Of a DNA stretch of 38,435 bases, positions 4,301 through 38,435 are shown piece after piece (position 1 is the first letter of the stretch; every line of letters begins with the position of its first letter). The notes beneath the pieces were generated by a model, which ran no database searches, was not told the origin of the DNA, and worked only from the letters and a program-made list of their open reading frames with translations. The DNA comes from Rhodospirillales bacterium (lineage in GTDB: Bacteria > Pseudomonadota > Alphaproteobacteria > Kiloniellales > JAKSDN01). The DNA lies in NCBI GenBank assembly GCA_029859805.1, contig JAOUCL010000013.1, forward strand, positions 1 to 38,435, given 5' to 3'. Position numbers and translations under genes: made by a program.

Positions 4301-5089
4301 ATGGAAGATCGCTTTGACATGGCGAAGTTGCTCGATCTTCGGAAACTGACCACCGCGATCGCAGAAATTCTCCAAGGGCAACTGGCCGAGTATCTCTCGA
4401 CTTTGCATCCACTGTTCGCGCCCCAACGGGTGCTCGGCAACAACACCAGCCCCGGCACCAGCGCGACCGTCAAGGGCGCCGACAAGGTTTTCGCGGAGCT
4501 GCAGGCGGCCTACATCAGGCTGGCCGGGACCAAGCTCTACAATCTGCCCAAGGCGCTCGAGCCGCCGATCCCGGTCACGACTTCCCGGCCCGAGATCGTG
4601 CGCGTGGAGTATCCCTACGAGGCGAGCGCCGACGGCGCGACCAAGAGCCTGACCACAGTCGCGCCGCTCAAATGGGTGCTGACCTACGGCGGCTTCACGC
4701 CCGAGCACCTGCGCGCGCTGTTGTCCCAGGGCGTCAACGTGAACGAGCGCCAGCTCACGGAAACCCTGCTGCACGTCCTGATGATGGACCTGGTGGTCAG
4801 CCGGCAGTCGGGGCTGACCGACATCCTCCGGGCGCTCGGCTTCACCGTCGAGACGTCGCACGCGCCGGAGTTCGGCGAGCTGCCGCTGACCTACGTCAGC
4901 GCCCCGGTCCACACCCGGCGCCCACCCGACCAGCTCATGCTGCAGATCGCCGAGATCTCCGGCAGCCCGGTCTTCGAGGAGGTGGTGCGCATCGAGGACA
5001 TCGTGGCCCTGAAGACGCCGCTGAAGGACCAGCTCCTGGAGGCGGCGCGCAGCCACGCCGGCGGCCTGCTGGAGGCGGCGGGCGGCTGA
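4301..5089 (+). CDS. uncharacterised protein following tagF
   Basis: I do not recognise this 262-residue protein. It starts at an ATG after an AT-rich 136-bp gap (4165-4300) and a purine-rich AAAGGGG ribosome-binding site; a second in-frame ATG lies six codons later. It has no signal peptide and no membrane helix. The N-terminus is a helix (MAKLLDLRKLTTAIAEIL) followed by HPLFAPQRVLG. The middle has a conserved-looking WVLTYGGFTPEHLRALL stretch and the C-terminus is Ala-rich helical. Codon use is GC-rich like tssM and tagF, so it looks native to the cluster. It converges with the 5100-5282 gene, leaving 10 bp between stop codons. A cytoplasmic T6SS accessory role is inferred from position only. 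Confidence 0.8.
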   Translation: MEDRFDMAKLLDLRKLTTAIAEILQGQLAEYLSTLHPLFAPQRVLGNNTSPGTSATVKGADKVFAELQAAYIRLAGTKLYNLPKALEPPIPVTTSRPEIVRVEYPYEASADGATKSLTTVAPLKWVLTYGGFTPEHLRALLSQGVNVNERQLTETLLHVLMMDLVVSRQSGLTDILRALGFTVETSHAPEFGELPLTYVSAPVHTRRPPDQLMLQIAEISGSPVFEEVVRIEDIVALKTPLKDQLLEAARSHAGGLLEAAGG

Positions 5090-6732: not shown

Positions 6733-7566
6733 TCAATAAATGTGAACCGAACTAATCGCTTGTGTGCGTATCGCAAAATAATTTAGACCACATAACAGAG
6801 GATCAAAACAGGATTCGTCATTATCAAATGTATCAATCGGCATTTCAAATATCACTGGTGAAATCATATAGCTCTTACCACCGGATACAAACCGTTCGTA
6901 GGCCTTATATCCGCTATTAGCAAAGCCACCCTTGCACAATCTCAACCACGAGTCATAAATCTCCATCAAGCTCAATATCGCCGATTTGCTAGGCCGATCT
7001 TTGAGTTTGACTCGAACTAATCGGTCTATGTTCGCTCGGCCTTCTTGGTCTTGCTGCAGATCAAACGAATATGTCTCATATCTCAAGTTAGGCAGATCAA
7101 TGTCTCGCTCATTGACAATTCTCAGGGTCTCCTGCAACGACATATCCGCATTCGTCTCTACAATAATTTCGCCAATTTGGCTGTCTATGGACGGCTCCCC
7201 TCGTATCATTCCGACCAATACGCGAATTCCACGATAGTCCATTCCGGATATATCCAAAGTGATCTGCAAGACATTTTGGGTAGAAATCTCGATTGCATAA
7301 TTGGCCCCACTGGCACTCCGAGATGCATTCGAAGTGCCAAGGAGCATGCCAAAGCGATTTGCGGTGACAAATTGACCGAATATCCCATCCAACAAATCAT
7401 GCACCGCATCCACCTGACCATCCTGCACAGCCACCTTAATGACCCAGTGATGGTCAACTGTATGTGGACATACCTGAATTCTTACCGGAAACTCATTCAA
7501 ACTGATCAAAGCGCTCAATCCATCTAGTCGTTTGATCTTCGTCGAACACTCGACCGAATGGTGCAT
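6733..7566 (-). CDS. unknown protein next to the effector/immunity pair, candidate second immunity protein
   Basis: I do not recognise this protein (about 277 residues from the ATG at 7566). No signal peptide or membrane helix is evident. It contains FPVRIQVCPHTVDHHW near the N-terminus and a C-terminal part with FANSGYKAYERF and FDPLLCGLNYFAIRTQ. The start is uncertain: the ATG at 7566 overlaps the upstream immunity gene by 74 bp, while a TTG at 7500 would give only an 8-bp overlap and 255 residues. No good ribosome-binding site supports either. Base composition is clearly AT-richer than the core genes and matches the two upstream genes, suggesting they moved together. It may be an extra immunity protein, an effector chaperone or an orphan. 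Confidence 0.72.
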   Translation of the reverse strand: MHHSVECSTKIKRLDGLSALISLNEFPVRIQVCPHTVDHHWVIKVAVQDGQVDAVHDLLDGIFGQFVTANRFGMLLGTSNASRSASGANYAIEISTQNVLQITLDISGMDYRGIRVLVGMIRGEPSIDSQIGEIIVETNADMSLQETLRIVNERDIDLPNLRYETYSFDLQQDQEGRANIDRLVRVKLKDRPSKSAILSLMEIYDSWLRLCKGGFANSGYKAYERFVSGGKSYMISPVIFEMPIDTFDNDESCFDPLLCGLNYFAIRTQAISSVHIY

Positions 7567-8470
7567 GATTGCGACATAATAGGGGAGCAACAGCCCTCGC
7601 CACCATCCGGTAAAGGGGTAGGTTATCGCCGCTGTTCACATCACCGAGACTTGGAGCCGATCCCGCTTTGATCAGCAATTTCTGACTTCGGAGCATGACC
7701 TCGATGCGCTCGTCTCGAATAAATTCACGTCGTTTAGAAGATTCAAACTCGGCAGTGAGATCTTCACCCAAGGCGGTTAACCAATTCACAGATTTCATTT
7801 TGTCATTTAGGAAGTTCTCTGCGGCATGAAAAACAAAGACATCATAGCCGGGATGTCTCATGGCCAGCTTCAAATATTCTTTCCCATGAGGTCCGGACAA
7901 TAAGTTCGAATTGATGTCGAAAAACAAACTATATCCGGCATACCCATGAAGTATTGGAATTACGTCAATTAGCGTCAAACTCAATGTTTGAAATTTCTCC
8001 AAAGAAAAGATTTTCGGGTCTGCGGGAAACGACAATCGTAAGCAATTGACTTTCTTTCCAAAGTCGCCTTCGTCTGCGCCGAAAATTGCAGCCAACAGAG
8101 GCTTTTGAGACTCGTCGATGAGGGCAGCATTCTCGACATACAATTCGATCGCCCAGGGAGAGATGCTTTCTGGGCTCTCTCCGCCGTGAGCGAAAAAAAG
8201 ATACCGAGATCTCTTATCCGTTCCAGGTTCAAACCAAAATGGGACCATCTCCAACACATCGTCATCGACTGGTTCTTTGTATGGCATACGTTCTGTCGAG
8301 TACCAGCGGAGATGATCCCGATAAATCGGTTCAATATGCTCCCATACTTTAGTTATCGCCTCACAAATCTGATCGGAAATAACGTCAAAAAACACACATA
8401 TACTAAGTGCCGGCGTTACCAGAACACGGTCGCCATCTAGGATCATATGTTCTTGTGGCCAATCTGACAT
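7493..8470 (-). CDS. DUF3396-type T6SS immunity protein
   Basis: A 325-residue cytoplasmic protein resembling the DUF3396 / 'type VI immunity family' group. The best match is the central HPGYDVFVFHAAENFL followed by SVNWLTALGEDL, which parallels the family's 'RxPGxD ... xxGVNWLTFLGDxL' core. No signal peptide is present, which fits protection against a nuclease acting in the cytoplasm. The ATG at 8470 is chosen because it lies 19 bp after the stop of the upstream effector gene; a longer version would need a TTG start inside that gene. The gene is directly downstream of the PAAR-like nuclease gene, the standard effector-immunity order. Base composition is AT-rich relative to the core T6SS genes. 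Family assignment is by eye. Confidence 0.82.
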   Translation of the reverse strand: MSDWPQEHMILDGDRVLVTPALSICVFFDVISDQICEAITKVWEHIEPIYRDHLRWYSTERMPYKEPVDDDVLEMVPFWFEPGTDKRSRYLFFAHGGESPESISPWAIELYVENAALIDESQKPLLAAIFGADEGDFGKKVNCLRLSFPADPKIFSLEKFQTLSLTLIDVIPILHGYAGYSLFFDINSNLLSGPHGKEYLKLAMRHPGYDVFVFHAAENFLNDKMKSVNWLTALGEDLTAEFESSKRREFIRDERIEVMLRSQKLLIKAGSAPSLGDVNSGDNLPLYRMVARAVAPLLCRNHAPFGRVFDEDQTTRWIERFDQFE

Positions 8471-8489
8471 TTCTTGATCTACAATTTCA

Positions 8490-9482
8490 TTAGATTGAAG
8501 CCGAGCAACCACATGACATATTGTCAATTACTATTGGATCTTTTCCATTATTCAATTTTGGGTAATCTCTGCTTTGTCCCGGACTCAATGAATCCTCACC
8601 GCTCTTCCATGTAAATTTCGCATCAAGGACTTCTCCTCCCCCAGTTACGGGATTCGTAGTAACAATGTCAGGTCTACGTGGCCAAGCATTGGCAACATTG
8701 TTGTTGACTTCGGAAATATATTGATTGGCCATCCAATTCGGAACTGCGGCATTCCCTGGCATGCCGCTGCACCAAGATAGAATCTTTGTCAGGGGTCCCG
8801 CAAGTCCGGAGGTGGGTACATTGGCAGCCGCCTGATATACGCCTGCCAGATAGTTTGGTGTCACGATCTGTCCGCCCGTCGCACCAACGATTGCAGCCTG
8901 CTCACTGAGTATATTCGGGTCGCCAAGTTGCTGCAATTTTTCTTCCAGACGCCTACTGCAATTCCCGCTCCCAGGAGGAAGTTCCCCCTTGTCATATTCC
9001 TCTTGAGTGTCGCAAAAAGCCTCGCAGATTGCCTTCACTTGCTCGTCGGTCATGTCAATGTTTGAAACGCCGGTCGTCGCTTGTAATTCTGCAACAGTTG
9101 TCGTATTCGCAGCATTGCCGTTGTTCGTCATCGGGTCGCCTAGGCGCGGCACATTCTTTCCCTCGACTTTGACGTCGAAGCTGTAGTTGACGAACTTTGC
9201 TATTCCCATGTTGGTATTTGAGACAACACCCTTGAGCGTGCCCGGCTCGTCTCCCATGCTCGTGCTAAACTTAGAGGTCTTTAGCATAATGGGATTGCCA
9301 TCCATCTTGACGGTCGTGCTGCCGTCGGCCGTATCGCTGGATTGCGCTACATTGATGTAAGGAACGGGTATCGGCGGCGCTGGGGGTGCTGGTGTCTTGC
9401 AGAAATCTGGCACGGAGGGCGCCTTGCCACCACTGCTCTTGTGGACGACCGACCTCCCGTTGACGATGATGGTAGCGCCCAT
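8490..9482 (-). CDS. PAAR-like (DUF4150) T6SS tip effector with C-terminal PD-(D/E)xK-type nuclease domain
   Basis: A 330-residue two-part protein. Residues 1 to about 125 are a DUF4150/PAAR-like domain: it starts MGATIIVNGRSVVHKSSGG, has a proline-rich VPDFCKTPAPPAPPIPVPY stretch, then MGDEPGTLKGVVSNTNMG and a VPRLGDPMTNNG motif. This domain caps the VgrG spike. Residues about 250-330 look like a restriction-endonuclease-fold nuclease: RRPDIV (Asp272), EVLDAKF (Glu284, Asp287, Lys289), then SPGQSRDYPKL with a Gln and Tyr placed as in VRR-NUC-like enzymes. The catalytic reading is my inference. It sits 14 bp after the ketosynthase-like gene and just before an immunity gene. The predicted activity is DNA cleavage in a competitor cell. 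Confidence 0.85.
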   Translation of the reverse strand: MGATIIVNGRSVVHKSSGGKAPSVPDFCKTPAPPAPPIPVPYINVAQSSDTADGSTTVKMDGNPIMLKTSKFSTSMGDEPGTLKGVVSNTNMGIAKFVNYSFDVKVEGKNVPRLGDPMTNNGNAANTTTVAELQATTGVSNIDMTDEQVKAICEAFCDTQEEYDKGELPPGSGNCSRRLEEKLQQLGDPNILSEQAAIVGATGGQIVTPNYLAGVYQAAANVPTSGLAGPLTKILSWCSGMPGNAAVPNWMANQYISEVNNNVANAWPRRPDIVTTNPVTGGGEVLDAKFTWKSGEDSLSPGQSRDYPKLNNGKDPIVIDNMSCGCSASI

Positions 9483-14232: not shown

Positions 14233-14546
14233 CTCCGCTCCCCATTCACCGCGATGTTATCGCAGTCGGCGCAGATTGCCTAGGCAAAGGAACACGTTGC
14301 CCTTGGATCGTCGCACGCTTTTCGCGGTGCGTCCCGGGCCTGCCCCAAGTGCCTCGATCTTGCTCGTGCCACCATCCGACGGCCGGAGCCGCTTGGCAGT
14401 GAGTATAATCACATCGCTAGTGTGATGGTTCCGAAGATCGCCACATTCGATGTGACGAACTTCGGCGCTTCGTCTCGGCAGGCATGCACCGTTCCGGGGC
14501 CCTTTGTGATAGAATCGCCTCGTCCCCACCAGAAGGAGCGACCGTC
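14233..14546. promoter_or_regulatory. divergent intergenic region between vgrG and the sheath-fusion gene
   Basis: This 314-bp gap must hold the start signals for both the leftward vgrG operon and the rightward TssB-TssC-like gene. It contains a 12-bp perfect palindrome TTGCCTAGGCAA at 14276-14287, 44 bp from the vgrG start. A TATAAT hexamer lies on the + strand at 14404-14409, with no convincing -35 at normal spacing. It overlaps an inverted repeat ATCACA-N7-TGTGAT at 14408-14426. I could not find a sigma-54 type GG-N10-GC promoter. The promoter assignments are only candidates. Confidence 0.45.
14408..14426. promoter_or_regulatory. inverted repeat ATCACA-N7-TGTGAT, possible operator
   Basis: Two perfect 6-bp arms separated by TCGCTAG, overlapping a TATAAT hexamer, 121 bp upstream of the start of the sheath-fusion gene. 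The position suits a repressor site for that gene. The half-sites are CRP/FNR-like sequences but in the reverse arrangement, so no regulator is proposed. Confidence 0.25.
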
Positions 14547-16100
14547 ATGCCTGGACCGCTCGAGTTCGAGTTCCGCTTTGCCCGCCCCGACGGCCGGCCG
14601 GCCCGGCGGCGCGACGCGGAAAGCCCCTTCCGCATCCTGGTCATGGGCGATTTCAGCGGCGGGTGCCCGCGCGCCGAAGCCGGCCGCCTCGAGGACCGGC
14701 CGCTGATCCCGGTCGACATCGACAATTTCGACCGCGCGGTCGCCCGGCTGGCACCGCGGGCGGCCATATCCCTCGAGGGCCGGGCCGCCGACGCGCAGGA
14801 GATCGCCTTCGGCGCGCTGGACGACTTCCACCCCGACGCGCTGGCACCGAAGCTCGAGGTTTTTCGAGAGCTGTGGCGGCTGCGCGAACGCCTACTCGAT
14901 CCGGCCACATTCGAGGAAACCGCCGCCGGTATGACACGGGACGCCGAACAAGCGTCCGCGTCGGAAGACGGACCCGGTCCCGCCCCGGACGCCGCGCCGG
15001 ACGCCGCGCCGGAGGACCACGGCGCGACTTTCGAGCGGTTGCTCGGTCGCCGGGTCGAGCCTGGGACGGACGCCGGAGGACCGACGGTCGCGCAAACCGG
15101 CGCCACCCGAGAGCTGATCGAGCGCCTGGTCGAGCCGCACCTGGTGCGCGGCGCCGACCCGGAGCGCCAGCGCCTGCTGGTCGCCGCGGTCGACGACGGG
15201 CTCGCCCGAGAGATGGCCGCGGTGCTGCATGACCCGGCGTTCCAAACGCTGGAGGCGGCGTGGCGCGGACTCTACTGGCTGGCGAGCAGCCTGGAGACCG
15301 GCGAGGAGCTGTCCATCCACCTGCTCGACGCGAGCAAGCAGGAGTTGGCGGCCGACATCGGGGCCGCGGGCGCCGAGCTGGAGGCCTCGGCGCTGTACCG
15401 CAGGCTGGTCGAACAGCGCGCGGAGGGACCGGACGGCGAGCCCTGGTCGCTGATCGTCGGCGACTACCGCTTCGGGCCGGCGGAGGAGGATCTGAGTCTG
15501 CTGGCCGCGCTCGGCGCGATCGCATCGCGGGCCGGCGGGCCGTTCCTGGCGGCGGCCGATCCCGCGCTGCTCGGCTGCCGCAGTCTGGCCGAAACACCCG
15601 ACCCCGGCGACTGGACCGGGCTCGATCCCGAGACCGCGGGAGCCTGGCAGGTGCTCCGCCGCTCGGCGGTCGGGCCCTGGATTGGACTGGCGTTGCCGAG
15701 GGTGCTGTTGCGCCTGCCCTACGGCCGCCAGACGGATCCGATCGAGGCCTTCGCCTTCGAGGAGTTGCCGGGGGTGCGGGAGCACGAGGCCTACCTCTGG
15801 GGCAATCCGGCCTTCGCCTGCGCGCTTCTGATCGGGCAGGCCTTTCAGGAGAACGGTTGGGAGCTGCAGCCGGGCGACCGGCTCGACATCGCGGACCTGC
15901 CGGCGCACAGCTATACAGAGGAGGGCGAAAGTCGGCTCAAGCCCTGCGCCGAGGTCCTGCTGAGCCAGCGCGCGGCCGAGGCGGTGCTCGCCCGCGGCAT
16001 CATGCCGCTGCTGAGCCACCGCAACGCGAACGCGGTCCGTGTCCTGCGCTTTCAGTCGCTGGCCGAGCCGCCCACTGCCCTGGCGGGGCCCTGGGCCTAG
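14547..16100 (+). CDS. TssB-TssC-like fused sheath protein, C-terminally short
   Basis: A 517-residue protein joining both sheath families. Residues about 26-135 follow TssB: FRILVMGDFSG, RPLIPVDIDNFDRAVARLAP and FGALDDFHPDALAPKLEVF align with the equivalent parts of the TssB at 29687-30217. An acidic Ala/Pro linker follows (about 140-180). Residues about 195-517 follow TssC: LEAAWRGLYWLASSLETGEEL, WSLIVGDYRFG, GLALPRVLLRLPYGRQTDPIE, LWGNPAFACALLIGQAF and GIMPLLSHRNANAVRVLRFQSL. It stops where canonical TssC still has about 95 residues, so the C-terminal part used for sheath interlocking is absent. Start: the ATG at 14547 has AAGGAG eight bases upstream. Canonical tssB and tssC are present elsewhere in the window, so this is an extra copy, perhaps a sheath cap or length regulator (inference). 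Confidence 0.9.
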   Translation: MPGPLEFEFRFARPDGRPARRRDAESPFRILVMGDFSGGCPRAEAGRLEDRPLIPVDIDNFDRAVARLAPRAAISLEGRAADAQEIAFGALDDFHPDALAPKLEVFRELWRLRERLLDPATFEETAAGMTRDAEQASASEDGPGPAPDAAPDAAPEDHGATFERLLGRRVEPGTDAGGPTVAQTGATRELIERLVEPHLVRGADPERQRLLVAAVDDGLAREMAAVLHDPAFQTLEAAWRGLYWLASSLETGEELSIHLLDASKQELAADIGAAGAELEASALYRRLVEQRAEGPDGEPWSLIVGDYRFGPAEEDLSLLAALGAIASRAGGPFLAAADPALLGCRSLAETPDPGDWTGLDPETAGAWQVLRRSAVGPWIGLALPRVLLRLPYGRQTDPIEAFAFEELPGVREHEAYLWGNPAFACALLIGQAFQENGWELQPGDRLDIADLPAHSYTEEGESRLKPCAEVLLSQRAAEAVLARGIMPLLSHRNANAVRVLRFQSLAEPPTALAGPWA

Positions 16101-30305: not shown

Positions 30306-31376
30306 CTAAACGTCGTCGCTGTCAGCGCCCCGGATGTTCTCGGCCTGCGCCACGCCGTCGGGAACCAAGTCGCGCAGGATTTCCATGAAGTCCTTCGACA
30401 CCAGCCGTCTGGCCCGCCGCAGGAGTACCGGAACCGGGCTGGAAGGCTCGTTGCGCTCGTAGTACTCGCAGATCTTGTCGAGCGCCCGGACCACATCGTC
30501 GCGGCTGGCGATCCGTCCACCCAGCGCAACCCCGGCCGCACCGCCCGAAGGCTCCGTGCCATCATCCATAGCGCCATTCCCGTCGGACTCTTGGCCATCC
30601 TGCGCCGCAGCCGGATCGCCCGCCCCGCGCTCCGACAGCTTCTCGCCGAGAACGCGCTGAGTGGCCTTGAGGATGTTTCTCAGGTCGGCCAAGTTCGGTG
30701 CATTTTCCGACCCGACCTTGTCGGTTACGAAGTTCTCGATCGTTTCGGCCCGTTCCTCTGCCTCCCTAGACGCCGCCGCAGTCGCCTGCAACCCCTCCAG
30801 TTCGCATTCCTTGAAGGCCGCGTTGATCGCCGACATTTCGGGCAGCTCGCCGCCCGAGGAGTCCGCCGGCGCGATTTCACCGTTGGCCACGGCGATGTCT
30901 CTGTAGCTGAACCGGCCAAAGCTTCGCGAGCTCACCAAGGGCGCCTCGCGCAGGGCACGCAGCACGGTATCCGCGTCGCACAGCGACATGATGGTGTTGA
31001 CCCGCAAGGTTGGATCGTTGTCGTCTTCCGGGTCCAGCTGCGGGTAGACCGTGTCCCAGTATCGTTCGAGAGTTTGGCCGATCAAATTCAAGCTGTCGTT
31101 CAGGCCGACTAGGCCTTCCGTATCCAGCTGTGCCCTGGTTAGGTAGCTCAGAACGCGCAGATCCTTGGTGCGCGAGAGCAGTTGGACCGCTTGTTCCTGT
31201 ACCTTTTGCCAGTTCGGGCCCTCTGCCGGCACGGTGGTGTCGCCCATCGTCTGCTCGGGCTTGCCCCGCGTCGCGCGTTCCAGTTCCCCGAACTCGGCGT
31301 CGTATTCGAGATCCTCGCCGCACGGAAGGTCCTCGGAGATCTCCTGAAGCAATGTTTCGACGTCGATCCGGGCCAT
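30306..31376 (-). CDS. tssA: TssA (ImpA N-terminal domain) assembly protein
   Basis: A 356-residue TssA. The ImpA N-terminal domain is at 1 to about 170: CGEDLEYDAEFGELERATRG, GPNWQKVQEQAVQLLSRTKD, LRVLSYLTRAQLDTEGLVGL, YWDTVYPQLDPEDDNDPTLR. An Ala/Glu-rich middle and an acidic linker follow. The short C-terminal domain has RDDVVRALDKICEYYERNEP and SPVPVLLRRARRLVSKDFME, as in the TssA type that binds the baseplate and distal sheath end. A GGAGG lies 11 bases before the ATG, inside the end of the preceding small frame. An 88-bp gap separates it from tssB. Confidence 0.96.
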   Translation of the reverse strand: MARIDVETLLQEISEDLPCGEDLEYDAEFGELERATRGKPEQTMGDTTVPAEGPNWQKVQEQAVQLLSRTKDLRVLSYLTRAQLDTEGLVGLNDSLNLIGQTLERYWDTVYPQLDPEDDNDPTLRVNTIMSLCDADTVLRALREAPLVSSRSFGRFSYRDIAVANGEIAPADSSGGELPEMSAINAAFKECELEGLQATAAASREAEERAETIENFVTDKVGSENAPNLADLRNILKATQRVLGEKLSERGAGDPAAAQDGQESDGNGAMDDGTEPSGGAAGVALGGRIASRDDVVRALDKICEYYERNEPSSPVPVLLRRARRLVSKDFMEILRDLVPDGVAQAENIRGADSDDV

Positions 31377-31918: not shown

Positions 31919-31938
31919 AATGGCGATGAAACGCCATT
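31919..31938 (+). repeat. hairpin AATGGCG-ATGAAA-CGCCATT containing a 16-mer shared with 18999-19014
   Basis: A perfect 7-bp stem with a 6-base loop. The inner 16 bases (atggcgatgaaacgcc) also occur at 18999-19014, in the decayed island, suggesting a small dispersed repeat family. Confidence 0.45.
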
Positions 31939-32236
31939 GGCCCGGAAGGTGTCCGCCGGCCTTAACCGGACAACCTCCACGGACCCCGTTGAACGGGCGC
32001 GCCGAATTCGGGGCCGCGACGAGCGAAAGGGTCGAACGTTCGAACTGCGCGGGATGCGGACGATGCCCCGCCCAGGCCCCGATGGAGCGATTCCAATTCT
32101 GCGATGCGACGGAACAGGTAAATCCACGGAACAGTTAGACAGACAGAGGCAATTTTGCTTAAGGTGGTTGTGGGCATTTCCGAGATCATCTCATGGGGAA
32201 CGGCGTACATGGCGCTGGGTGTCGTCCAACATACAA

Positions 32237-33079
32237 ATGAGTACAATAATCGCACTGGCACGAGAGCAGGTACGCTGGCGCGAGGATTCAGGCTCTGCAA
32301 CAGTGAGTAGATCGGATCCAATTCCTGGGCCGGCGGACCACTTCCGTTGGCGGTCCGCGAGCTGCAGTCATGTCGGAACCGTGCGGAAGGTTAACGAAGA
32401 CGCCTGTCTGGAGCGCCCGGACATCGGACTGTGGGTCGTCGCCGACGGCATGGGCGGGCATCGTGCCGGCGACGTCGCGAGCGAAACGGTCGTAGAATCA
32501 TTGCGCGGCGCGGTCAATCCAGTAAGCCGCGAATCCCTTCTGTTGGACCTTCAGCAGCGTCTGAAGTCGAGCCATGAGCGGCTTCAACGGCTGGCGGCCG
32601 AGAGTCCGGACCGCGGGGTCATCGGAACCACCGTAGCGGTTCTCGTCGGCTATCAGCGCCAGGCGATCTGCCTCTGGGTCGGCGACAGCCGAATCTACCT
32701 GTGTCGGGACCGGCAATTCCGGCAGCTCACACGGGACCACTCGCAGGTCGAGGAGCTGGTAAAGCTTGGGCTTCTCGACCGCGAAGAGGCCGAGTCGCAT
32801 CCGGCCAGCAATGTCATCACCCGGGCCGTCGGCGCCACGGACGATCTCAAGATCGACATGATCTCGGGCGACCTGCACGACGGGGACATCTACCTGATCT
32901 GCAGCGACGGACTGAACAAAGAGGTTCCCGACGCCGAAATCGGGCAAATCCTGCAAAGCGGGAGCTGCGAAGACTCGGCCCGGGCATTGATCGATCGCGC
33001 CCTTGACTATGGCGCGCGCGACAATGTCACGGCTATTGTCGTACAGGTGGTGGAACAAGATGGCTCTCCGGCATACTAG
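32237..33079 (+). CDS. pppA: PppA-type PP2C Ser/Thr phosphatase
   Basis: A 280-residue PP2C-family phosphatase that reverses PpkA phosphorylation and dampens T6SS assembly in other bacteria. All metal-binding motifs are present: GTVRKVNEDACL, LWVVADGMGGHRAGDVAS, GTTVAVLVGY, LWVGDSRIYLCRD, QLTRDHSQVEELV, IYLICSDGLNKEV and ARDNVTAIVVQV. The ATG at 32237 is taken as the start, leaving about 45 residues before the catalytic domain. No ribosome-binding site is evident, and a GTG further in is an alternative. ppkA follows 50 bp after its stop. The phosphatase and kinase therefore probably form one regulatory unit, divergent from the structural genes. Confidence 0.94.
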   Translation: MSTIIALAREQVRWREDSGSATVSRSDPIPGPADHFRWRSASCSHVGTVRKVNEDACLERPDIGLWVVADGMGGHRAGDVASETVVESLRGAVNPVSRESLLLDLQQRLKSSHERLQRLAAESPDRGVIGTTVAVLVGYQRQAICLWVGDSRIYLCRDRQFRQLTRDHSQVEELVKLGLLDREEAESHPASNVITRAVGATDDLKIDMISGDLHDGDIYLICSDGLNKEVPDAEIGQILQSGSCEDSARALIDRALDYGARDNVTAIVVQVVEQDGSPAY

Positions 33080-33129
33080 CACCGACGCATTCTCACATGC
33101 GCGCCACGGAGAGGGCGGTCGAACAATCC

Positions 33130-34824
33130 ATGTTTGAACAGATTGGGCGTTACGAGATCCTGGAGCTGATCGGCGAGGGCTCGATGGCCGAGGTCTACAA
33201 GGCCTACGATCCCGAGATCGACCGTACGCTCGCCTTGAAGATCCTCAAGCAGGAGTGGTGCCTGGATGAGGAATACGTTGGTCGCTTCATACGCGAGGCC
33301 AAAGCGGCCGGCGCCTTTTCCCACCCCAACATCGTTACCGTTTACGACATCGGAAAGGTCGAGAACCGGCCGTACATCATCATCGAGCTGATCAACGGGG
33401 CACCTTTGGGAGATTCGATGATACCCGGAAAGCCCCTGCCGTTGAAGCAGGTGCTGTCCATTGGCATTCAGATGGCCGATGCCCTGGATTTCGCGCACCG
33501 CCACGGCGTCGTCCACCGCGACGTCAAACCCGCCAATATCCTCGTCTTGGCCAACAGCGAGACCATCAAGATCGCGGATTTCGGGATCGCCCACATGGAC
33601 GACCCGAACTCCGCCCAGCAGACCCAGGTCGGCGCCGTGCTGGGAACGCCGCAGTACATGTCGCCCGAGCAGGTGATGGGGCAAAAGGTCGACGGACGGT
33701 CCGACCTGTTTTCCCTTGGCGTCATCCTCTACCAGCTTTGTACCGGGCAGCGGCCGTTCGACGGCGATACCATGGCAACGCTGCTGTACAAGATCACCAA
33801 GGAGGACCCGCCGCCGATCGCACAGCTCGACGCCGGCACGCCGGCGGGCCTGCAGCATATCGTCGGCAAGCTGCTGGCCAAGGCGCCCGAGCGGCGCTTC
33901 CAGAGCGGCGAGGAACTGGCCAAGGCGCTGAGACACGAGCTGAAGGCGCTGCAAGAGCTTTCGCAGGACGCCGACAAGCAGCGCTACATCCCGATCCGGG
34001 TCCGCTCGGCCCTGCTGATGGGCACACTGGTGGCGCTGACCATGGCGGTCAGCGTCTTCTTTATCGAAGACAAGCAGAACGAGGCCCTGACCCGCTTTGC
34101 GATCGATTCCGGCGCCTCGTTGGCAAAATTCATCGCGACCGAGACCGCCGTGCCGGTGCTCAGCCAAGACTGGGTGTCGATCGAGATCGACATCCAGGAG
34201 GCATCCCAGCGCCAGACCTTCGAGTACCTGTTCGTGCTCGACCACCAAGGGATCGTAAGAGGCGCCAGCGATGATGCCCTACTGGGCAAGACCTACAGCG
34301 AACCGGAGATCAAGGAGACGTTGTTCGACGACGGCAGCGTACGGGCCGTGGTGGTCGGCCAGTCCGGCGGCGCGGCGGTGCTGGATTTCGACACGCCGAT
34401 TGTGTTCCAGGGCAAAGAGGTGGGACGAATCCGTCTGGGTCTGCTACAAACCTCGCTGCAGGAGGTCGTAGACATCACCCGAATCCTGCTGATCGCCTTG
34501 TCAGCCGTGACCGTCCTGGCGGTGGGTATCGGGTCTTATGTCCTCGCCCGGCTCTTGTCACGGCCGATCAAGGCATTGCGCACGGCACTCAACGAGATCC
34601 GAGACGGGAACATGGATTGTCGGATCTCCGAGGAAAGACACGACGAACTCGGCGAGGTGTTTGCGGAGTTCAACAAGATGGCCGCCTCGCTGGAGGCACG
34701 GAACAACAGCGACCTCATGGAGACCGATGTCAGCGAACCCAAGACGACCGATGTCGGCGAACCCGCAGCAACCGATGTCAGCGAACCCGCGGCAACCGAT
34801 GCCAGTGAACCGACGACGACTTAG
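33130..34824 (+). CDS. ppkA: PpkA-type membrane Ser/Thr kinase with sensor and HAMP domain
   Basis: A 564-residue transmembrane kinase. The N-terminal kinase domain has GRYEILELIGEGSMAEVYKA, catalytic Lys in LALKIL, VHRDVKPANIL (Asp131), IADFGIAH and GTPQYMSPEQVMG. A first membrane helix is near 293-312 (LLMGTLVALTMAVSVFFI). A periplasmic sensor of about 140 residues follows (FEYLFVLDHQGIVRGASDD, Cache-like), then a second helix near 451-475 and a HAMP segment (LLSRPIKALRTALNEIRDGN). The tail consists of four 8-residue TDVSEPxx repeats. Start: the ATG at 33130 has GGAGAGGG 13 bases upstream; an ATG at 33097 has none. Its end overlaps the deacetylase start by 26 bp. The Cache-HAMP layout suggests it senses an envelope signal. 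Confidence 0.95.
   Translation: MFEQIGRYEILELIGEGSMAEVYKAYDPEIDRTLALKILKQEWCLDEEYVGRFIREAKAAGAFSHPNIVTVYDIGKVENRPYIIIELINGAPLGDSMIPGKPLPLKQVLSIGIQMADALDFAHRHGVVHRDVKPANILVLANSETIKIADFGIAHMDDPNSAQQTQVGAVLGTPQYMSPEQVMGQKVDGRSDLFSLGVILYQLCTGQRPFDGDTMATLLYKITKEDPPPIAQLDAGTPAGLQHIVGKLLAKAPERRFQSGEELAKALRHELKALQELSQDADKQRYIPIRVRSALLMGTLVALTMAVSVFFIEDKQNEALTRFAIDSGASLAKFIATETAVPVLSQDWVSIEIDIQEASQRQTFEYLFVLDHQGIVRGASDDALLGKTYSEPEIKETLFDDGSVRAVVVGQSGGAAVLDFDTPIVFQGKEVGRIRLGLLQTSLQEVVDITRILLIALSAVTVLAVGIGSYVLARLLSRPIKALRTALNEIRDGNMDCRISEERHDELGEVFAEFNKMAASLEARNNSDLMETDVSEPKTTDVGEPAATDVSEPAATDASEPTTT
34723..34818 (+). repeat. four 24-bp tandem repeats at the ppkA/deacetylase overlap
   Basis: Units begin at 34723, 34747, 34771 and 34795, each starting accgatg. 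In the ppkA frame they encode TDVSEPKT, TDVGEPAA, TDVSEPAA and TDASEPTT. In the next gene's frame each unit offers an ATG (MSANPRRP, MSANPQQP, MSANPRQP, MPVNRRRL). Because 24 is a multiple of three, copy-number change keeps both frames. Confidence 0.92.
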
Positions 34825-35806
34825 GAGCCGTTTGCTGCTGCTCGGCTTGGCGGCGGGCTTGGCCTGGGGCTGTGCACCTTCGACCGACAGCCGAGTGGTC
34901 GCCAGGAGCAGCGATTTCGTCGTGGTCTCCACAGGCTCCAAGACGACGCTCCGCTCGCTGGCGCGCGCATACCTCGGCGACGAATCCCTTTACCGGATCA
35001 TTGCCGATTTCAACGACGTCTCCCGGGTGCGCGGCGGACAGGAACTCGTCATACCCCTGAAGCCGGCGAACCGCGCAGCGGTCTATCCGAACGGCTATCA
35101 GGTTGTGCCGATCCTGACCTATCACCGCTTTGCGCCGAAAGGACAGGGCTGCGACAAGCTGGCCGTGGACGCGCGTTCCTTTGCCAAGCAGCTGGCTTAT
35201 CTTCGCGACAATCACTATTCGGTCATCACTTTCTCGCAGTTGGCCGATTTCATCGAGGGCAAGGCCGCCATTCCGCCCAAATCCGTCATCCTGACGATCG
35301 ACGACGGCTACAGATCGGCCTACGATGTCGCCTACCCCGTCCTGCGCAGGTACGGGCAAAAGGCGACCATCTTCGTCTATTCCGATTTCATCGGCGCCGG
35401 AGCCGGGTTGACCTGGGCGCAAATGAAGGAAATGGTCGCTTCCCGGCTGATCGACATACAACCGCATTCGAAGACCCATAGCGATTTGACCATTCGGCTG
35501 GAGGGCGAGAGCGAAAAGGCCTACAGGGAGCGGATCCGCGAGGAGGTTCGCCATCCTTCCAAGGCGATAGAACGGAATCTTGGGCTGCCGATCCATACCT
35601 TTTCCTACCCTTATGGCGCGGAAAACGACGCGGTACTCGCCATCGTCGAAGCGGCGGACTTCAGGTTGGGCACCACGGTGACCCGCGGCAGCAACCCGTC
35701 CTTTGCCCACCCCTTGGCCCTGCGGCGCACGCAGATCTACTGCGACGATGACATAAAGACCTTTGCCAAACGATTGGACGTGTTCAAGAATGTTGCCTTG
35801 AAATGA
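34799..35806 (+). CDS. LysM plus polysaccharide deacetylase (NodB-like) lipoprotein
   Basis: A 335-residue predicted envelope lipoprotein. The signal region RRLRSRLLLLGLAAGLAWGC has its Cys at residue 23. A LysM-like domain follows at about 40-85 (TTLRSLARAYLGDESLYRII; QELVIPLKP). The NodB-type deacetylase domain has VVPILTYHRF, ILTIDDGYRSAYDVAYPVL (Asp pair near 168-169), KATIFVYSDFIG, PHSKTHSDL with metal-binding His223 and His227, and HTFSYPYGAENDAVL. Catalytic residues look intact, so it should deacetylate peptidoglycan or another envelope polysaccharide. The start lies in the 24-bp repeats within the end of ppkA; upstream repeat units provide alternative ATGs. The stop overlaps the next gene as ATGA. 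The lipobox (AWGC) is slightly irregular. Confidence 0.9.
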   Translation: MPVNRRRLRSRLLLLGLAAGLAWGCAPSTDSRVVARSSDFVVVSTGSKTTLRSLARAYLGDESLYRIIADFNDVSRVRGGQELVIPLKPANRAAVYPNGYQVVPILTYHRFAPKGQGCDKLAVDARSFAKQLAYLRDNHYSVITFSQLADFIEGKAAIPPKSVILTIDDGYRSAYDVAYPVLRRYGQKATIFVYSDFIGAGAGLTWAQMKEMVASRLIDIQPHSKTHSDLTIRLEGESEKAYRERIREEVRHPSKAIERNLGLPIHTFSYPYGAENDAVLAIVEAADFRLGTTVTRGSNPSFAHPLALRRTQIYCDDDIKTFAKRLDVFKNVALK

Positions 35807-36813
35807 TCGTATTGCGCCACCACGCCCTTGCAGTCCCTCTGCTGTGCTTCGTTACGGCGGCCTGTACGTCGCCGATGATCTCGATGACGCCGGCGCAGCA
35901 GCCGGACAAGGCCGCTTTCTCCGCCCGCAAGACCACGGCCGAGAAACTGACCAACCGCGGCGAATTGGCCGAGGCCGTGGTGCAGTGGAAAGTCCTGGAA
36001 ACGATTGCCGGACACGATCCGGAGCTCGCCCGAAAACGCCGAGCCGTGGAAGCCGAGGCCAAACGCAGGGCCGAAACGCATTTCGATAAAGCGACCACGG
36101 CGCTCGCCAAGCGGCGCACCAAGGAGGCGCGGCGTGAATTTCTCACCGCCCTGGCGTTCGACCCGACGCACCGGGACGCCATCGAGCAACTCAGAAAGTT
36201 GGAGGTGAAGCAGGTTCGCCTGGACCGGCCCAGGGTCGCCTCGCCCATGCCGAGGATAGCGAATAGGAAGAAGACCGCCGCCGTGGCCAACGCAGAGGCC
36301 TCGACCAAGAAGACGCCGGCTCCGGCGAAGAAGGCACCCGCTCCGCAACCCAAGCCGCAGGAGGCCAAGAAGCCGGAGAGCGAGTCGCTGGAGCGGGCCG
36401 TCGATCTCGCCAAGCAAGGGGCCTATCTGGCGTCGATCCCGTACTTCAGGACTCACCTGACCCAATTTCCGGCGGACGATAAAGCGACGACACTACTTGC
36501 CACCTCGCACCGGGAGGTCGGCATCGCCTTGTACAACAACGGCAAGCTAAGGGAGTCGGTGAGCCATCTCGAGGCATCGGCCAACTATGGGAAGCAAGCC
36601 GACGGGGTGGTCAAGGCGGCGCTCACCGACGCGAAGAGTCGTTTGGCGCAGCAGGCCTACGAGAAAGGCGTCAGGGTCTTCCGGCAGGACATCGCTCAGG
36701 CGATCGCCCTTTGGGAACAGTCGCTGTCCTACGACCCGGCTCATATCAAGGCAAGGTCCTATTTGGACCGCGCCTACAAGATCCAGCAGACGTTGAACTC
36801 TCTGACGCAATGA
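35803..36813 (+). CDS. TPR-type lipoprotein of the ppkA operon
   Basis: A 336-residue predicted lipoprotein with signal peptide LAVPLLCFVTAAC (lipobox TAAC, Cys21). Two helical repeat regions (about 45-130 and 190-335; for example AKQGAYLASIPYFRTHLTQF and IALWEQSLSYDPAHIKARSY) are separated by a Lys/Ala/Pro-rich linker (TKKTPAPAKKAPAPQPKPQE) that could span or stick to peptidoglycan. The repeats resemble TPRs. The ATGA overlap with the deacetylase gene implies coupled translation. It ends 55 bp before the convergent LysM-TPR gene, with no obvious terminator between. A scaffold in the periplasm linked to the kinase sensor is a guess from position. Confidence 0.87.
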   Translation: MIVLRHHALAVPLLCFVTAACTSPMISMTPAQQPDKAAFSARKTTAEKLTNRGELAEAVVQWKVLETIAGHDPELARKRRAVEAEAKRRAETHFDKATTALAKRRTKEARREFLTALAFDPTHRDAIEQLRKLEVKQVRLDRPRVASPMPRIANRKKTAAVANAEASTKKTPAPAKKAPAPQPKPQEAKKPESESLERAVDLAKQGAYLASIPYFRTHLTQFPADDKATTLLATSHREVGIALYNNGKLRESVSHLEASANYGKQADGVVKAALTDAKSRLAQQAYEKGVRVFRQDIAQAIALWEQSLSYDPAHIKARSYLDRAYKIQQTLNSLTQ

Positions 36814-36868: not shown

Positions 36869-38407
36869 TCAATCATTAGTCGGGATCTTCTTTAGACGAT
36901 CTTGGATCTGCAGGGAGCGGATTCGCTGAATCTTCGACGGCTCGTGATCGGGATTTACCTCCAGCGCCTTGTCGAACCGATCTATCGCCTCGACCAACTC
37001 CTGCCGTGAGAACGACTCCATACCCTGTTTGTAATAGATATCAACCACTTCTGGTTTTATCTTGTTGAGCGCGTCCAGGGCGGGTCCGTAATCGGGAGAA
37101 ATAGCGATCGCCTTTCCATAGGTGGCAAAGGCTTCGATGGGCTGGTTGGCGTTTTGATACTCCTGGCCGCGTTTATAGAAAACCTCTGCCTTGCCGAGAC
37201 GCTCGCTCGTGGCCAGTCGCTCTCGAATCTCCGAATTCTCAGGATCGAGTTTGAGGGCCAGTTCGAGAGACTTGCGCTCTTCGTCCAAGCGTCCATCGCT
37301 GCGCGACTGGTCCGCATCGATCAAGAATTTGTCCCTCAGCCGGTCCCGAATTCCGGCGTTCTGGGGATCGATTTGGAGGGCCGTCATGAGGAGTTCCAGC
37401 TCTTCGTCGTTCCGGCCTTCGTTGCGCGCCTGATCGGCCCGGGCCATATAGTTAGCCACTTGGGTCGTCCTGATCTCCGGGTTCTGGGGATCCAATTCGG
37501 CGGCTCGTTTCAGGGCCCCCCCTGCCCGATCATATTGCTCTTGCGTGGTAAGCTGACCGGCAAGCGTGATGTAGTTTGCCGCCGCTATCTTCGGCATCAT
37601 TTCGTCGTCCTGAAACTGCAGAATCCCCTCTTCCAAGACGTTGGCCGCACCCTCGAAATCACCCGCGGAAGCCCTTTCCTGGGCGTTGTCCATGATGGTT
37701 TGGACGCGATCTACATTCAATTCCTGGATCTTGAAGTCCTCGCTATCCGTCTCGGCATCTCCCCCGCCGTTTTCCGTCGGTGTCGGGATTGCCTTTTCGT
37801 CAGCGTCGCCGGGCGTCTGGCTCTCGTCATCGCCGGGCGCCGCGGGCACTATTGCCTCCTGCAGACCAGGCTCGGTTTCGGGCGGAAGCTCCTGCTCGGG
37901 AATGCTGGGCATATCCAACGGCTCTTTGCCCGGCACCTTTATTACCTGTCCCACCTTGATCTGGCTGGGATTGTCCAACTCGTTGTAGCGCGCGAGCGCA
38001 TAGAACTTCAAAGCACCGCCAAGGTACTGCTTGGCCACACTGGAGAGGGATTCACCGGACTTCATCTTGTAGATAAAATACTCCGTGCCGAGCAACACTT
38101 TCGGATCCGTGTCGATCTGCTCCAGCAGACCCTTGGTGGGGTTGGTGTAGCGTCCGCCAGGATCCTCCGCCAGGTAGGCCAGCAGCTCCGCCTTGGCCTG
38201 CCCCGCCTCGCCGACCTCCAAGAGCGAAATGGACTTGAGATAGCGCTCCTTGGGCGCCAAGCCCGGCTCGGGCTTAAAGAGCAGCGCCTGTTGCTGGTCC
38301 TGGGGCGACTGGCCGGACATCCCTTGGCCGGCGGAATCGCCGGTCGTTATACAGCCGGCGAGTGAAAGCAGCAGCACCGCCGAGAAGAAATAGCCTATTA
38401 GCCGCAT
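36869..38407 (-). CDS. LysM and TPR lipoprotein
   Basis: A 512-residue lipoprotein. The signal peptide MRLIGYFFSAVLLLSLAGC has a good lipobox (LAGC, Cys19). A LysM-like domain is at about 110-155 (YKMKSGESLSSVAKQYLGGA; QIKVGQVIKVPG). An acidic Pro/Asp/Glu-rich linker spans about 165-220. From there to the end is a helical repeat array (GALKRAAELDPQNPEIRTTQ, LLMTALQIDPQNAGIRDRLR, LELALKLDPENSEIRERLAT, DRFDKALEVNPDHEPSKIQR). The start at 38407 is preferred because it begins the signal peptide, and an AGGGAG lies 10 bases upstream. It is convergent to the ppkA operon and transcribed alone within the window. It probably binds the cell wall; a link to the T6SS is by position only. Confidence 0.9.
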   Translation of the reverse strand: MRLIGYFFSAVLLLSLAGCITTGDSAGQGMSGQSPQDQQQALLFKPEPGLAPKERYLKSISLLEVGEAGQAKAELLAYLAEDPGGRYTNPTKGLLEQIDTDPKVLLGTEYFIYKMKSGESLSSVAKQYLGGALKFYALARYNELDNPSQIKVGQVIKVPGKEPLDMPSIPEQELPPETEPGLQEAIVPAAPGDDESQTPGDADEKAIPTPTENGGGDAETDSEDFKIQELNVDRVQTIMDNAQERASAGDFEGAANVLEEGILQFQDDEMMPKIAAANYITLAGQLTTQEQYDRAGGALKRAAELDPQNPEIRTTQVANYMARADQARNEGRNDEELELLMTALQIDPQNAGIRDRLRDKFLIDADQSRSDGRLDEERKSLELALKLDPENSEIRERLATSERLGKAEVFYKRGQEYQNANQPIEAFATYGKAIAISPDYGPALDALNKIKPEVVDIYYKQGMESFSRQELVEAIDRFDKALEVNPDHEPSKIQRIRSLQIQDRLKKIPTND

Positions 38408-38435
38408 AACCTCGCAACTCCCTGAGTCCATGCCA

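Follow-up and report, generated by a model that had tools for sequence, protein, structure and literature searches.

The 38,435-nt contig JAOUCL010000013.1 of a draft Rhodospirillales genome (assembly GCA_029859805.1), the whole of which we analysed and refer to as the window, carries a run of type VI secretion system (T6SS) genes and, divergent from it, a rightward operon for a PP2C phosphatase, a PpkA-like receptor kinase, a deacetylase lipoprotein with LysM and NodB domains, and a TPR lipoprotein. Relatives of the deacetylase occur with a TPR gene downstream and a homologous sensor upstream in distantly related bacteria; the output domain of the upstream receptor is exchanged in one group, and the set is also present in genomes that lack T6SS core genes. 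In our best explanation, to which we give about an even chance, this is an envelope receptor module in which the two lipoproteins report the state of peptidoglycan or another glycan to the Cache receptor. The preliminary description of the operon had proposed an envelope-sensing branch that couples wall modification to T6SS activation. This T6SS-specific interpretation is partly supported; a receptor module with an exchangeable output, often adopted by T6SS loci, is the better frame.

The first gene of the operon encodes a PppA-like phosphatase (31937..33079, + strand; Pfam PP2C, E 5.6e-13), whose actual start lies 3' of the listed TTG and whose phosphatase domain runs from about 32366. Against the NCBIfam Stp1/IreP PP2C model it scored 226 bits (E 4.3e-67, residues 144–370; cut-off 230). 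The receptor kinase (33097..34824, +) starts with a Hanks domain (residues 19–270) that has the customary HRD and DFG motifs, followed by an sCache_3_2 sensor (335–459) and a C-terminal HAMP domain (482–534). Pseudomonas PpkA carries a VWA domain; none was detected in the window kinase by the Pfam scan. The kinase reading frame, ending at 34824, overlaps by 26 bp the gene for the 335-residue deacetylase (34799..35806, +), the exact start of which is uncertain because the ATG at 34799 falls within degenerate repeat sequence at the 3' end of the kinase gene. The deacetylase stop codon TGA (35804–35806) in turn shares 4 bp with the gene for the 336-residue TPR lipoprotein, which starts with ATG at 35803 (35803..36813, +; Pfam TPR_2, E 2.8e-9). 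The tight overlaps from ppkA through the TPR gene were thus correctly described, coordinates included, and because of them the kinase and lipoprotein genes are probably co-transcribed. The TPR lipoprotein, also recognized as the conserved downstream gene, is modelled (pLDDT 84.5) as two TPR-type helical lobes with an Ala/Lys/Pro-rich linker between them, and a fold search with this model returned generic TPR proteins only. The same genes are found in the nearest named relatives, uncultured Kiloniellales metagenome-assembled genomes (MAGs), with deacetylase identities of 97% and 94%.

A scan of genome contigs with a nine-member deacetylase profile gave 71 loci (L numbers). Scan loci and whole-genome loci together comprise 72 distinct loci after removal of duplicates (L055, L056, L057, L072 and L089 duplicate the records L046, L047, L050, L053 and L054 and were counted once) and of four LysM-less NodB proteins that match only from residue 103 on (L121, L122, L123, L125). 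The record titles place these loci in Alpha-, Beta- and Gammaproteobacteria, in Desulfobacterota and in a handful of other groups, and some of the MAGs are probably mislabelled; the deacetylases constitute one family across Proteobacteria and Desulfobacterota. A TPR gene lies directly downstream in 64 of the 72 loci, 36 of which have the same 4-bp overlap, so the overlap seen in the window is no accident; in several members of the Desulfobacterota, one or two LysM stretches occur within that TPR gene. A PppA-like phosphatase was found anywhere in the fetched stretch in 33 of 72 loci. Spread by plasmids was considered and rejected, since none of the seven plasmid records with a match covers 80% of the deacetylase. 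A search of the open-licence literature at the level of titles and abstracts found no description of the module.

Upstream genes were examined in the 68 distinct loci that have upstream DNA. A Hanks kinase with a Cache-HAMP sensor precedes the deacetylase directly and on the same strand in 39 of them; culturable bacteria with this kinase form include Azohydromonas aeria, Rhizobacter, Agaribacter marinus and Motiliproteus. In another 13 the upstream gene encodes a class III (guanylate/adenylate) cyclase, accompanied by a homologous sensor in 12 (L113 has a cyclase fragment only). Pfam analysis of two such loci found cyclase and HAMP domains in L090 and cyclase, sCache and HAMP domains in L114, and the window sensor region alone retrieves the cyclase-linked sensors with E values from 7e-21 to 7.5e-6. 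Either output being joined to a homologous sensor, the receptor input and the lipoproteins stay while the output changes. On this comparison of sequences, the exchanged output is the strongest sign that the lipoproteins are probably partners of the receptor and not of T6SS. Nine further loci have a divergent sensor gene.

Deacetylase and sensor are also inherited together. Distances between deacetylases correlate with those between kinases and with those between sensors (r 0.74 in each case), a value reached in none of 2000 permutations, in tests that ignore shared ancestry. Among class samples totalling 385 genomes (G numbers), a sensor at E 1e-10 or better was present in all five with a long deacetylase match (G000, G098, G225, G321, G397) versus two of the 380 without; four of those five come from a single bacterial family, which leaves few independent events. 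The two sensor genomes outside the deacetylase set are G377 and, with a weaker match (1.6e-14), G166. In G377, which has no deacetylase match at E 1e-20, the kinase gene adjoins a gene for a TPR lipoprotein; a LysM-like stretch in that protein, and beside the kinase the end of an FHA-like gene and a PP2C-like gene, were recognized by eye.

The deacetylase has the parts expected of a wall-binding lipoprotein: a lipid-anchor cysteine (Cys25), a LysM domain at about residues 36–92 (34904–35074) and a NodB domain at residues 159–289 (35273–35665; Pfam Polysacc_deac_1, E 1.8e-23). The catalytic and metal-binding residues D168, D169, H223 and H227 that define CE4/NodB enzymes are all present, in keeping with the intact motifs noted earlier, and are conserved in 60, 56, 55 and 56, respectively, of 60 relatives. 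Even at E 10, Pfam makes no LysM call in the window protein; it matches LysM in four of nine relatives (best E 0.0029). The predicted structure (mean pLDDT 94.9), however, has a strand-helix-helix-strand arrangement at residues 40–86, and profile comparison of this segment with the Pfam-supported LysM of the neighbouring gene gave 98.5% probability, whereas two control stretches reached 0.3% and 0.04%. By these predictions the LysM assigned in the preliminary description is real although missed by Pfam. The lipoprotein signal was recognized correctly as well, Cys25 being present in 59 of 60 relatives. In Escherichia coli, Asp at position +2 after the lipidated cysteine is an inner-membrane retention signal; none of the 60 deacetylases has Asp there, so that the lipoproteins of the module are predicted to avoid the inner membrane and to reside in the outer one. 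The deacetylase is under purifying selection, with nonsynonymous (dN) and synonymous (dS) divergence from the sister genome G031 of 0.015 and 0.18, respectively.

The closest solved folds are those of the CE4 deacetylases PplD, BC0361, PgaB and IcaB (Foldseek E 2.6e-20 to 1e-14), which act on wall or biofilm glycans and with which the module enzyme has its fold and catalytic residues in common. Unlike PgaB, IcaB and PplD, it has a LysM domain, and its 335 residues leave it without a second domain, which full-length PgaB carries. Identity with PgaB was rejected: the NCBIfam PgaB model matches at E 1.2e-35 with 122.9 bits, far below its cut-off of 321.9, and Pfam finds no second catalytic domain. 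Poly-N-acetylglucosamine (PNAG) was likewise rejected as the general substrate, because the PNAG synthase PgaC scores over its cut-off in only one of 59 module genomes. With LysM present, the substrate is most likely peptidoglycan.

All the checked residues are kept in 55 of the 60 deacetylases, and five (L109, L112, L114, L115, L118) have lost catalytic or metal-binding ones. Four of the five lie downstream of a cyclase receptor; the fifth, L109, has too little DNA to tell. As the residue-losing proteins keep their cyclase receptor, binding rather than catalysis appears to be favoured in those loci. This distribution bears on an opposite order of events, in which the receptor acts first and the lipoproteins form its output: stress sensed by the Cache domain would control a complex that modifies wall or glycan, for example by hardening the wall against lytic enzymes. 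The predominance of intact active sites, the nature of the closest folds and the overlapping genes would all suit such an arrangement, but the pseudo-deacetylases do not, and direct phosphorylation of periplasmic lipoproteins by a cytoplasmic kinase domain is unlikely. We give this arrangement about one chance in four of being right.

The preference for lipoproteins as input is itself tempered by several points. Enzyme activity probably matters in most members, which would suit output rather than input; the placement in the outer membrane depends on the E. coli +2 rule; and the distance permutations leave common descent out of account. In addition, seven of the 68 loci (L078, L086, L087, L088, L104, L109, L111) have no receptor in the searched span, with kinase-family matches farther away in L087, L088 and L104, and together with the divergent-sensor group they show that the arrangement is not fixed.

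The link to T6SS was assessed in 59 genomes, nine with G numbers and the other 50 corresponding to loci among the 71 from the scan; many of the 59 are MAGs of unknown completeness. TssC was found in 33, TssK over its cut-off in 34, DotU/TssL in 38 and IcmF over its cut-off in 21. Neither TssC nor TssK reached its cut-off in 24 of the 59, including G098, G225, G321 and G397, each at least 99% complete. The module is thus not confined to genomes with a T6SS, and the expectation that its homologues would sit at T6SS loci fails for much of the family. TssC occurs in 33 of 59 module genomes compared with 53 of 289 from the window's class; these samples are not matched, differing in classes covered and in MAG content, and we therefore claim no T6SS enrichment. 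On a tree of 60 deacetylases, 54 of them labelled for T6SS by TssC alone, T6SS presence requires 13 changes, at least 11 of them forced by well supported branches. Shuffled labels gave a mean of 17.9 changes, with 3 of 500 shuffles as low as the observed value; T6SS state is clustered on the tree but has been gained or lost often.

At the level of the locus, a T6SS core, tube or VgrG gene was present in the fetched flank of 14 of 72 loci. Several false matches had been dropped from this count: TssH matches in L110 and L112, which are ClpB and not ClpV (of the three scanned, only that of L111 is true), those in L113 and L124, which cluster with the ClpB-type sequences of L110 and L112, and MotB-type TssL matches in L062 and L096. 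The linkage is tight in some lineages: the module lies about 5 kb from tssC in the window and the sister genome, where both the Hanks kinase and the PP2C phosphatase genes adjoin T6SS; it adjoins tssJKLM in two genomes from a different family within the order; and close linkage recurs in some Gammaproteobacteria. No FHA gene was found in the window, where the contig ends; in L049 and L060 TagH lies next to the module. The linkage to T6SS, together with TssC or TssK in 22 of 34 kinase-type genomes tested against three of nine cyclase-type ones, would fit a dedicated T6SS accessory whose deacetylase would loosen or mark peptidoglycan at the point where the apparatus passes through, in step with PpkA firing. 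The many genomes without TssC and TssK, the repeated changes of state and the cyclase outputs make this improbable. What stands of the original proposal is the tie between an envelope module and a PpkA-type kinase, in several lineages beside T6SS core genes; what falls is the dedicated T6SS role. Loosening of peptidoglycan for the machine fails as a general function but may still apply in this genome.

Some T6SS-less genomes nevertheless keep relay genes. In G098, G225, G397 and G451, where TssC, TssK and IcmF were not found, the module locus contains a DotU/TssL-like gene, and PpkA, PppA, a TagH-type FHA protein and the TssL-like protein are encoded beside the deacetylase (TagH was identified in L068 by a local profile only, and that profile called no TagH gene in L051). 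TagH (TIGR03354) scored 219–249 bits against a cut-off of 120 in L052, L053 and L065, and the DotU model was over its cut-off in L051, L052, L065 and L068, while the score in L053 fell slightly short (82.1 versus 89.95). The genome of L065 has the same locus and a separate T6SS on other contigs.

Loci of this kind might be relics of genomes that lost T6SS and are now losing its regulatory genes as well, and the survival of TagH, TssL, PpkA and PppA without TssC, TssK and IcmF is what such decay would leave. Yet the reading frames are intact with dN below dS, selection still acting between L052 and L068 on TagH (dN 0.06, dS 0.64) and TssL (dN 0.22, dS 0.65). Gene order is the same in L051, L052, L053, L065 and L068, with TssL identities of 52 and 71% for the two pairs measured, and the receptor-deacetylase-TPR core is kept also in genomes with none of TssC, TssK, DotU and IcmF. 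Decay is therefore, of the explanations considered, a very improbable one. Beside the module in L053, from a T6SS-less family, an FHA-SpoIIE phosphatase gene (L053:13224-15232) accompanies STAS- and RsbW-like genes, recognized by eye, as a possible partner-switch set.

Against a true absence of T6SS, Hcp scored over its cut-off in all seven genomes tested, among them the TssC-less G098, G225, G321, G397 and G451. The Hcp-like genes of G225, G321, G397 and G451 have no T6SS neighbours among the families searched. By eye, the proteins of G397, G321 and G225 begin with Sec-type signal peptides, and the G451 match lies inside a longer reading frame. We read the Hcp-like proteins of TssC-less genomes, with those at L133:9252-9884, L134:8835-9428 and L136:8382-8876 (from genomes that have neither TssC nor TssK, and with Sec-type signal peptides as judged by eye), as probable exported Hcp-fold proteins. 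Taken more widely, the module may be a free-standing family of peptidoglycan-reading receptors with exchange between kinase and cyclase, whose kinase form T6SS borrowed more than once and whose relay some bacteria keep for another purpose without a contractile machine; this we hold to be plausible, if short of an even chance.

For the envelope receptor module we envisage the following mechanism. The receptor would sit in the inner membrane with its Cache domain in the periplasm, coupled through HAMP to the output domain, a Hanks kinase here and a class III cyclase in one Desulfobacterota group. The lipoproteins, predicted in the outer membrane, would face the wall; LysM would hold the deacetylase on peptidoglycan, the NodB pocket would bind or deacetylate N-acetylglucosamine, and the TPR lipoproteins may act as a scaffold. 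The condition of wall or glycan would then be relayed to the Cache domain, switching the output on or off, and the PP2C phosphatase would reset it. In this genome the phospho-output would most likely act on T6SS proteins (TagH/Fha or TssL), as in the known PpkA pathway. The comparisons establish the gene order, the domains, the deep co-inheritance, the exchanged output and the independence from T6SS, while physical contact, substrate or ligand, signalling direction and control of T6SS in this genome are inferred.

In that T6SS threonine phosphorylation pathway, PpkA phosphorylates Fha, PppA opposes it and envelope inputs lie upstream (PMC10482370). The Pseudomonas and Serratia versions described there, with TagQRST or RtkS input, resemble the module in having a membrane Hanks kinase, a PP2C phosphatase and an FHA protein near T6SS, and in having outer-membrane and periplasmic inputs such as we propose (PMC10482370). 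The module differs in its LysM-NodB and TPR lipoproteins as candidate inputs, in its Cache-HAMP sensor and in being found also without T6SS and with a cyclase output. In Agrobacterium, TssL is phosphorylated by PpkA and then bound by Fha, in a relay that drives secretion (PMC3953482). Kinase, TssL and FHA protein types are likewise encoded at one locus in the genomes studied here that lack the T6SS core; the differences are the absence of TssC, TssK and IcmF from four genomes and the addition of the deacetylase and lipoproteins.

Downstream of the operon, a convergent gene (36869..38431, − strand) encodes a further lipoprotein with LysM (about 37931–38071; Pfam E 1.9e-9) and TPR domains. It is part of the deacetylase/kinase unit, and a homologue lies no more than 6.5 kb downstream in 29 of the 72 loci. 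Divergent from the phosphatase gene, tssA (30306..31376, −; Pfam/NCBIfam) starts the leftward run TssA-TssB-TssC-Hcp-TssE-TssF-TssG-TssH (31376 down to 20251), whose order is kept in the sister genome. Separate from the true tssB and tssC, one protein (14484–16100, +) joins a TssB-like N-terminus to a TssC-like C-terminus (VipA 7e-17, VipB 1.4e-64) near VgrG, DUF2169, ketoacyl-synthase and PAAR-like genes. At 7493–9482 (−), a gene for a PAAR-like (Tox-PAAR-like) protein precedes one of a TsiV-type immunity family; the two may be a T6SS effector-immunity set. Also near T6SS genes, a 262-residue protein (4301–5089, +) has no Pfam or NCBIfam match at E 1e-4; its family recurs at L076, L079, L084, L096, L049 and L050, and in Thiodiazotropha-type genomes its gene and that of the module kinase are divergent. 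In six Desulfobacterota loci (L101:185-3454, L087, L088, L097, L099, L103), large proteins that belong to a single cluster are encoded near the module; the sole scanned member, L101:185-3454, contains an AlgX-like domain.

For PpkA-type kinases outside a few model bacteria, whose envelope signal is an open question, the module provides a defined candidate input, a wall-binding deacetylase lipoprotein adjoining the receptor, and its natural experiments (cyclase output, dead deacetylase, missing T6SS) allow input and output to be tested apart. If the proposed reading is true, the retention of TagH and TssL-like genes without TssC, TssK and IcmF would represent a new use of T6SS parts.

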